A stretch of DNA of 32,219 bases, taken from positions 1 to 32,219 of the forward strand of contig JAPLPF010000138.1 of assembly GCA_026400325.1 (NCBI GenBank). Reading direction: 5' to 3'. Source of the DNA: Rhodobacterales bacterium (GTDB lineage: Bacteria > Pseudomonadota > Alphaproteobacteria > Rhodobacterales > Rhodobacteraceae). This document shows, piece by piece, positions 12,208-19,960 of this stretch (the stretch's first letter is position 1; each line of letters begins with the position of its first letter). The position numbers and the translations under genes were made by a program. Under the pieces are notes generated by a model. That model searched no databases. It was not told the origin of the DNA and saw only the letters and a list, made by a program, of their open reading frames with translations.

Positions 12208-12234
12208 GCGCGCACCTCCGTTCCAGGACAAGCT

Positions 12235-12268
12235 AAGCGCCCGGCAGGGATTGTCCAGCCGGGCGCTT
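12235..12268 (-). terminator. terminator-like hairpin downstream of the decarboxylase gene
   Basis: AAGCGCCCGGC (12235-12245) / GCCGGGCGCTT (12258-12268), perfect 11-bp stem, 12-nt loop. Confidence 0.65.
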
Positions 12269-12287
12269 GGCGGTCAAAGGCGAAAGG

Positions 12288-16874: not shown

Positions 16875-19800
16875 ATGCCGATGGAAAAGACCTTCAACGC
16901 CGCCGAGGCCGAGGCGCGGATTTCCAAGCTCTGGCTTGACCGCAAGGCCTTTGCCGCCGGGGCCAATGCCAAGCCCGGGCACCCGGCCTTTTCCGTCATG
17001 ATCCCGCCGCCGAACGTGACCGGCAGCCTGCACATGGGCCACGCCTTCAACAACACCCTGCAGGACATCCTGACCCGCTGGCACCGGATGCTGGGCGATG
17101 ACACGCTGTGGCAGCCCGGCACCGACCACGCGGGAATCGCGACCCAGATGGTGACCGAACGCGAGATGGCCAAGAACGGCGAACACTCGCGCCGCGACCT
17201 GGGGCGCGAAAAGTTCCTCAGCCGCGTCTGGCAGCAAAAGCAGAAGTCGCGCGGCAATATCCGGGGGCAGCTGGAGCGGCTGGGGGCCTCCTGCGACTGG
17301 GACCGTGAGGCGTTCACCATGTCGGGTGCTCCGGGGGCTCCGGCTGGCGAGGAGGGCAACTTCCATGACGCCGTAATCAAGGTCTTCGTCGATCTTTACA
17401 ACAAGGGCCTGATCTATCGCGGCAAGCGGCTGGTGAACTGGGACCCGCATTTTGAAACCGCGATTTCCGACCTTGAGGTCGAGAATACCGAAGTCCCCGG
17501 CCATATGTGGCACTTCAAGTACCCGCTCGCGGGCGGGGAGACCTACGAATATGTTGAGAAGGACGCCGAGGGTAGGGTGACCCTGCGGGAGACGCGGGAT
17601 TACATCTCCATCGCCACCACCCGGCCTGAAACCATGCTTGGGGACGGCGCGGTTGCGGTTCATCCATCAGATGAACGTTACGCGCCAATCGTCGGGAAAC
17701 TATGTGAAATTCCGGTTGGGCCGAAGGAACACCGCCGCCTGATTCCGATCATCACCGACGAATACCCCGACCCCACGTTCGGGTCCGGTGCGGTGAAGAT
17801 CACCGGCGCGCATGACTTCAACGACTATGCTGTGGCGAAGCGCGGCGACATCCCTTGCTACCGCCTCCTCGACACCCGCGCCCAGATGCGGGCAGACGGC
17901 GCGCCCTATGCCGAGGCGGCAGAGATCGCGGGCCGCATGTCGCGGGCGTGGCTGGTTGCCAAGGGCTATGCGACGCCGGGCTTCGTCGAGCAGCCCTTCA
18001 CTTTGAGCGAATCCGAGATCGACGCCCTCAACCTTGTGCCGGATGAGTTGCGGGGCCTGGACCGGTATGAGGCCCGTAAGCGCGTGGTCGAGGCGATCAC
18101 GGCCGAGGGGCTGGCCGTGATGGTGGCCGCCAAGGAGTCGGGGCAAGCCCCGACCTACGAGAACGACGACGGCGACGAAGGTAGGTCGGGGCTTGCCCCG
18201 ACTCTTGTCCCCTACGTCGAATCCAAACCGATCATGCAGCCCTTTGGCGACCGCTCCAAGGTGGTGATCGAGCCGATGCTGACCGACCAGTGGTTCGTCG
18301 ACACCGCGAAGATCGTGGAACCCGCGCTGGAGGCGGTGCGGACTGGCCGGACGAAGATCATCCCGCCCTCGGGCGAGAAGACCTATTACCACTGGCTGGA
18401 GAACATCGAACCCTGGTGCATCAGCCGCCAGCTTTGGTGGGGGCACCGCATCCCCGCCTGGTTTGTGGTGAGTGAAACGGGCGGTGTGATCGTCTTGTTG
18501 CTTTCTGTGCAGCGACGGCGGAAGAAGCGGCAGAGCAAGCAAAACGTTACTACGACGTCGACCGGATTTTCGCGAAGCCCATCCGTGTGGTGGCAAAGAA
18601 TGAATGGAGCGACCTTAGCTACATCAACATCGGTGACCCGTTTGAGACCATCATTTTGTCTCGCGACCCCGACGTCCTCGACACCTGGTTCTCCTCCGGC
18701 CTCTGGCCCATCGGCACGCTCGGCTGGCCGGAGCCCACGCCGGAGCTGCAGAAATACTTCCCCACCTCGGTCCTCGTGACCGGGCAGGATATCCTGTTCT
18801 TCTGGGTCGCCCGGATGATGATGATGCAGTTGGCCGTCGCGCGCGACATTCCGTTCCACACCGTCTACCTGCACGGCCTTGTCCGCGACGCCAAGGGCAA
18901 GAAGATGTCGAAGTCGCTTGGCAACGTCATCGACCCGTTGGAGATCATCGACGAATACGGCGCCGACGCGCTGCGGTTTGCCAATGCCGCAATGGCCTCG
19001 CTGGGCGGCGTCTTGAAGCTGGATACCCAGCGCATTGCGGGCTACCGGAACTTCGGCACGAAACTCTGGAACGCCTGCCGCTTTGCCGAGATGAACGGGG
19101 TTTGGGAGGGTCATGCGACCGGCCCTGCGCCCTCGCCCACCGCAACCGCGAACAAGTGGATCATCGGTGAGACGGCGAAGACCCTGGCCGAGGTCAACGA
19201 GGCGCTGGAGGCGTTCCGCTTCGACACCGCCGCTGATGCCCTTTACAAATTCGTCTGGGGCAAGGTCTGCGACTGGTATGTCGAATTCGCCAAGCCCCTG
19301 TTCGACGGCCCCGACGCCGCCGAGACGCGGGCGACGATGGCCTGGGTCCTCGACCAGTCGATGATCCTCCTCCACCCCTTCATGCCCTTCATCACCGAAG
19401 AGCTGTGGGGGACGACCGGCACGCGCGAGAAGCTGCTGGTTCACACCGATTGGCCAGAGCTGCCGCAAAGCCTGATCGACCGGGAGGCGGACAGGGAAAT
19501 GTCCTTTGTGACCACCCTTATCGACGATATCCGCTCGGCTCGCGCGCAAGTGCATGTGCCGGTGGGGCTGAAGGCTGACCTTGTGGCGACCAGCTTGACC
19601 GATGAAGCGCGCGCCGCCTTTGCGCGCAACGAGTCGCTCATCAAACGCCTGGCCCGGGTGGACACCGTCACCGAAGGTGCGGCCCCCAAGGGCAGCATCG
19701 CGGTGGCGGCGGAAGGGGCAGCCTTCGCGATCCCGCTGCAAGGCCTGATCGACATTGGCGAGGAGAAATCCCGCCTGCAAAAGGCGCTGGACAAGCTGGG

Positions 19801-19960
19801 CAAGGAAATCGGCGGCCTGAAGGGCCGCCTCGACAACCCGAACTTCGCCCGCTCGGCCCCCGAGGACGGTGTGATGGAAGCGCAGTCGAACCTGGAGGCG
19901 CGGCAAGAGGAATCCGCCAAGATCAAGGCGGCCCTCACCCGTCTGTCCGACCTCGGCTGA
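16875..19960 (+). pseudogene. valS: valyl-tRNA synthetase, frame broken near 18475-18500 (-1 shift)
   Basis: Frame A 16875-18488: [49 protein letters not shown]; frame B from 18488 to 19960: [19 protein letters not shown]...[33 protein letters not shown]. Confidence 0.9.
18135..18204. repeat. intragenic nested palindromic element inside valS (REPIN-like)
   Basis: Perfect 24-bp inverted repeat GAGTCGGGGCAAGCCCCGACCTAC (18135-18158) / GTAGGTCGGGGCTTGCCCCGACTC (18181-18204), spacer gagaacgacgacggcgacgaag; each arm carries its own GTCGGGG...CCCCGAC hairpin. Confidence 0.95.

Follow-up and report, generated by a model that had tools for sequence, protein, structure and literature searches.

The valS gene of a Tabrizicola genome was found to carry, in frame, two GTAG-tagged REP units (GTAGGTCGGGGCTTGCCCCGACTC) in opposite orientation, and we put the probability at roughly 0.8 that this REP pair was inserted into a surface loop of ValRS, probably by a RAYT and likely as two insertions. 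The window, i.e. the whole stretch of DNA that was analysed, is 32,219 nucleotides long and belongs to a Tabrizicola (Rhodobacteraceae) MAG of 233 contigs and 3.56 Mb that is 90% complete (hereafter G000). A preliminary description of the window had interpreted the palindrome as one of a mobile palindromic family that tolerates in-frame insertion into coding genes. As far as can be judged from the sequences, this interpretation is supported: there are further copies of the family, valS alleles that lack the element, and a RAYT gene, and it is from these that we infer mobility itself. Neither an absence of other copies nor a set of ValRS orthologues all carrying the same peptide on non-palindromic DNA was seen.

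The two arms of the palindrome, of 24 nt each, are 100% complementary and lie 22 nt apart (Table 1), just as had been described. Each of them is itself a hairpin, composed of GTAG, the stem-loop GTCGGGG-CTTG-CCCCGAC and a final TC, so that each arm is a short, perfectly paired stem-loop flanked on one side by GTAG. The claim that the palindrome is read through in frame was likewise borne out, since the frame is open and there is normal ValRS sequence on both sides. At 24 nt, the unit spans a whole number of codons, and stops are absent from all but one of its six reading frames. The palindrome had been said to occur once in the window, and indeed no other inverted repeat there is perfect at the 24-nt length; the next five are 14-20 nt long and 78-88% complementary. 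By our own arithmetic, 32 kb of sequence would contain a perfect pair of 24 bp within 100 nt by chance with a probability of ~1e-8. When folded as RNA, the 70 nt formed a 24-bp stem at -56.3 kcal/mol, compared with -24.2 for shuffled sequences (z -10.7). The outermost bases had been read as GANTC (CcrM) sites, and both GAGTC and GACTC are present, but GACTC is the ordinary 3' end of the GAC-type REPs in this genome; the GANTC sites therefore need no separate explanation, and the CcrM proposal was dropped. Elsewhere in the window, an inverted repeat of 17 nt at positions 12232-12271 (88% complementary, 6-nt gap) is possibly a terminator.

Table 1. Features of valS and of the palindrome that it contains (window coordinates).
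Feature	Position	Strand	Remarks
valS, first-frame part, host gene	16875..18464	+	ValRS residues 1-530
Inside-out (iREP-REP) doublet	18135..18204	+	folds as one 24-bp hairpin or as two small hairpins
Left REP unit (GTAGGTCGGGGCTTGCCCCGACTC on the minus strand)	18135..18158	-	read in frame on the + strand as ESGQAPTY; exact unit also at C82:9143-9164
Spacer, 22 nt	18159..18180	.	codes ENDDGDE plus one base of the codon that follows; the acidic loop sequence is probably native
Right REP unit GTAGGTCGGGGCTTGCCCCGACTC	18181..18204	+	read in frame within GRSGLAPTL
valS second variable loop	18465..18586	+	frame shifts by one base, which is probably a sequence or assembly error
valS remainder	18587..19960	+	open in another frame

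The genome-wide search that the preliminary description had proposed recovered further copies as well as inverted pairs. The REP pattern GTAGGNCGGGNNNNNNCCCGNC gave 24 exact matches in G000 versus 2 for the reversed-pattern control, and it was matched in all 32 Tabrizicola genomes searched. The family is dispersed and multi-copy in G000, where its hairpin loops are of several types, chiefly GTTCAC, CTTCAG and GCTTGC. One further copy of the GCTTGC type, to which the valS units belong, was found in G000 as a single unit on contig C82, just after a gene reading as rpmD; other REPs of this genome are situated just after rplA, rpoA and odhB (all names from reading the translated ends). Among the G000 REPs checked, only those of valS and of the RAYT gene lie inside real coding sequence. 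Open reading frames of 160-520 aa that span other REPs were rejected as coding insertions because they are spurious, with no Pfam match except for nuoJ alone, and their flanks read on inspection as the ends of rplA, rpmD, rpoA and odhB. In the case of nuoJ, the REP doublet at C32:22074-22129 supplies the TAG stop of the gene (..PGQGL followed by the TAG of GTAG).

The preliminary description had also assigned the palindrome the layout of a REPIN. Two inverted REPs with a short spacer are indeed present, and, as in the REPIN/RAYT system (Bertels and Rainey 2011, PMC3116915), they occur together with a RAYT and with subfamilies that exist side by side. However, the GTAGs of the valS pair face inward (CTAC ... 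GTAG, versus GTAG ... CTAC in the pair of the RAYT gene), no second copy of the whole 70-nt doublet or of its spacer was found in the genome, and the copy number of the family is low (the 24 exact matches given above). For reasons of this orientation and of the single occurrence of the entire doublet among the copies found, the valS feature is named here a GTAG-REP doublet, not a proven REPIN.

Comparison of the valS loop across relatives revealed element-free alleles in close relatives, for which the preliminary description had suggested looking. No palindrome was present in 21 of 27 Tabrizicola genomes, in which the loop reads LAVT..KKSVDKETGAEHLE..VPYVE or a close variant, and the 30 valS loops read from other Rhodobacteraceae genera were likewise free of REPs. 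The element is an in-frame coding insertion with element-free orthologues, and in this respect it behaves like the Rickettsia palindromic elements (RPE), palindromic DNA that lies in frame in essential genes and is translated. The likeness to RPE that had been drawn earlier holds for this behaviour and is claimed for nothing beyond it; in Di Nocera et al. 2013 (PMC3733652), RPE-4 and RPE-6 are classed with CGTC repeats, not with GTAG repeats.

The six Tabrizicola genomes that carry a palindrome at this loop comprise three with GTAG REPs (one of them partly readable) and three with another palindrome pair. In the source genome the arrangement is iREP-REP with the loop GCTTGC, and G005 has its own REP-iREP pair, the hairpin loop of which (GCGTGC) is the same as that of the pair inside the G005 RAYT. 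In G004, REP ends are found around a damaged stretch at junctions shared with the source genome, and because of these common junctions the insertion may be old. The damaged stretch of G004 was assembled as poly-G/poly-C and N, as if the hairpin defeated sequencing or assembly. G001, G021 and G003 carry a different in-frame palindrome pair, GCCCCGGGCTTGACCCGGGGC / GTCCCGGGTCAAGCCCGGGAC, with a differing left unit in G003; the reverse complement of GTCCCGGGTCAAGCCCGGGAC begins with CGTC in its context, like the published CGTC-REP type. The six carriers, together with the empty loops of other genera, point to the valS loop as a recurrent landing place within Tabrizicola. In the ValRS tree built for counting insertions only 2 of 24 branches were well supported, and one origin was not separated from several.

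The palindrome could also be kept for the sake of valS function, through ribosome pausing, control of mRNA stability or a useful peptide loop. Such a role would be in line with the very stable RNA hairpin and with the gain of more than one kind of palindrome by the same loop within the genus, but we regard it as very improbable, as the 21 element-free congeners do without the element, the loop is hypervariable and predicted to be disordered, and the carriers differ from each other in both peptide and arrangement. The structure model of ValRS is mediocre overall (pLDDT 63), with a better stretch at residues 220-420. In it, residues 429-452, which the element encodes, fall on a segment of pLDDT<50 (residues 430-447) between two strands of the editing region. 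Nothing that we observed hints at a regulatory function within valS; it is enough that a permissive loop lets the element persist, and the insertion would be neutral to ValRS.

The manner of insertion was evaluated by excising the element in silico in two ways. Removal of both 24-nt units kept the frame and left a native-looking loop, KENDDGDEVVPYVE, which resembles the native loops of the family (LAVMVTNDEGEAVPHVENKPIMQ), whereas removal of all 70 nt broke the frame and introduced stops. This favours two 24-nt insertions around native residues, and the spacer does resemble the acidic loops of element-free ValRS in the family; thus, the two REPs probably bracket native residues. The frame arithmetic speaks for two insertions of 24 nt over one of 70 nt. 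It is rather unlikely that one inside-out REP doublet (BIME-like, with CTAC...GTAG facing) was inserted whole, spacer included, with 2 extra bases. Inside-out doublets, with gaps of 0-28 nt into which the 22-nt spacer of valS falls, are the commoner arrangement in G000 (contigs C29, C176, C206, C223 and C80), the opposite arrangement being found on C32, on C48 and in the RAYT pair. However, 70 nt is not a multiple of 3, so a clean removal breaks valS, neither this doublet nor its spacer was found a second time in the genome, and the spacer itself reads like native ValRS loop. According to the preferred reading of two insertions, GTAG-tagged REP units of the dispersed Tabrizicola family would have entered the ValRS surface loop in opposite orientation, most likely as two separate 24-nt insertions flanking a native acidic loop, and would now be translated as a new disordered loop peptide.

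The assembly does not contain valS as a single intact open reading frame. The frame shifts by one base ~270-320 nt 3' of the palindrome, at about 18470-18520, in the second hypervariable loop, which lies between GHRIPAW and a further stretch of 10 residues. Since a search of the genome gave no other ValRS match (the second match was a paralogue of 29% identity), we consider an error in the MAG sequence more probable than a dead gene. All that is said here of valS depends on a single MAG, in which this very gene is frameshifted. The palindrome might also be a chimera produced by MAG assembly. The division of the MAG into 233 contigs, the frameshift nearby and the poorly assembled loop of G004 would all be compatible with an artefact, but we find this scarcely credible, as the frame is kept across the element, the unit is present elsewhere in the genome, and the corresponding loop of G005, which is a separate assembly, likewise holds a REP pair in frame.

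Intragenic GTAG REPs, including those in tRNA-synthetase genes, are already published, and the valS element extends them. In Di Nocera et al. 2013 (PMC3733652), GTAG and CGTC REPs are described within coding genes, often as dimers that code 20-30 residues; the host genes include tRNA synthetases of X. oryzae, E. litoralis and S. alaskensis. REPs are also described there as supplying TAG stops and as flanking or overlapping the ends of RAYT genes. The Tabrizicola elements share with these REPs the GTAG tag, the perfect hairpin of ~20 nt, the occurrence as single units or inverted dimers in coding genes, the addition of 20-30 aa, the tRNA-synthetase host and the TAG stop given to a neighbour (here nuoJ). 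They differ in that one ValRS loop has been used repeatedly by different palindrome families and that a REP pair lies inside a RAYT gene; neither Rhodobacter nor ValRS is mentioned in the main text. What the valS case adds is the empty alleles, a single loop that two or more palindrome families have used recurrently, and the frame-keeping 24-nt unit.

The RAYT gene for which the preliminary description had proposed looking is present in the genome, outside the window, as a single gene (C230:19716-20276). It was identified with the NCBIfam model REP_Tyr_transpos (NF047646; E 3.8e-49 to 4e-48), and its relative in the PDB is the TnpA-REP 4ER8 (E 9e-39). The search of the genome with Pfam PF01797 (Y1_Tnp) had yielded no transposase, which was a false negative given that NF047646 finds the RAYT. 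TnpA-REP recognises a hairpin together with GTAG and cuts at CT (PMC8266576), and the system studied here resembles the REPtron/TnpA-REP of E. coli, S. maltophilia and Marinomonas (PMC8266576) in having an HUH/Y1 transposase with the PDB homologue 4ER8, a GTAG foot and a CT adjoining the hairpin. The valS insertion would probably have been catalysed by such an enzyme, a RAYT (TnpA-REP, HUH/Y1 transposase) that would recognise the single-stranded hairpin with its GTAG foot and cut near CT. The best candidate would be the only RAYT found in the genome, which has a REP/iREP pair of its own in frame, and we infer that it mobilised the valS units. Against this, the valS units have the loop GCTTGC and the RAYT pair has GTTCAC; a strict match between the two loops fails in the source genome and holds in G005. 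Because of this mismatch, and because only one other GCTTGC copy was found, the mobilising enzyme could be another RAYT, now lost or encoded in the missing 10% of the genome.

In our opinion, the RAYT result matters more than the valS element. The RAYT gene is associated with the repeats through an internal REP pair: its coding sequence holds, in frame, GTAGGTCGGGGTTCACCCCGACTC ... 66 nt ... GAGTCGGGGTGAACCCCGACCTAC. The RAYT orthologues of Tabrizicola show the same arrangement in the same place, with the hairpin loop (GTTCAC, GCCTGC, GCGTGC or CTTCAGA) changing on both arms together. A tagged in-frame pair was present in at least 37 of 75 Rhodobacteraceae RAYT coding sequences, which were drawn from Tabrizicola and from the 80 best public relatives. 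This fraction is not a population estimate, as the alignment by which the public sequences were ranked for similarity itself included pair-bearing RAYTs. Some genomes may be counted twice (as genome and as public record). The reading frame of the pair never varied, although there were 17 different left arms. The two arms agreed at 21.1 of 22 positions within a gene versus 18.5 between genes. Measured to the same end point, RAYTs without any pair are 151-152 residues long and those with a pair 162-187, and the stretch encoded by the pair is predicted to be disordered (residues 94-129, pLDDT <50). Moreover, of the REPs outside the RAYT gene, a mean of 32% had the loop type found inside it, versus 14% when the pairing was shuffled (p about 2e-4, 13 genomes), which is an association only, obtained from related genomes of which 2 of 13 had no match.

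The occurrence of the same kind of hairpin pair in the RAYT gene suggests that the hairpin DNA is tuned for insertion into proteins. It is possible, although we hold this with some doubt, that there exists a Rhodobacteraceae RAYT lineage that carries its cognate pair in frame, where it would serve as a template or address built into the gene, or as a site of self-regulation, and whose REP family has been shaped for coding insertion. The embedded pair would occupy a loop of almost constant position, with the HUH domain on one side and the C-terminal part of the RAYT on the other; its arms would change together between species and follow the REPs present in each genome. If true, the shaping for coding insertion (a 24-nt unit, stop-free in 5 of 6 frames) would account for hairpins in essential genes such as valS. 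A RAYT that bears its presumed substrate, with arms co-varying and matching the REPs of the genome, offers natural enzyme-substrate pairs for direct testing, and it bears on how RAYTs recognise and spread REPs and why they persist as single-copy genes. In the REPtron (PMC8266576) the REPs flank the transposase gene, whereas the Rhodobacteraceae pair lies inside the coding sequence. In the part of the literature that was searched, no REP pair is described within the coding sequence of a RAYT, and such a RAYT is apparently unreported.

In addition, in several Tabrizicola genomes the RAYT gene is closely followed, about 200 nt past the embedded pair, by another REP or REP/iREP pair. This downstream REP or pair sometimes has another hairpin loop (e.g., GCGTGC beside GTTCAC).
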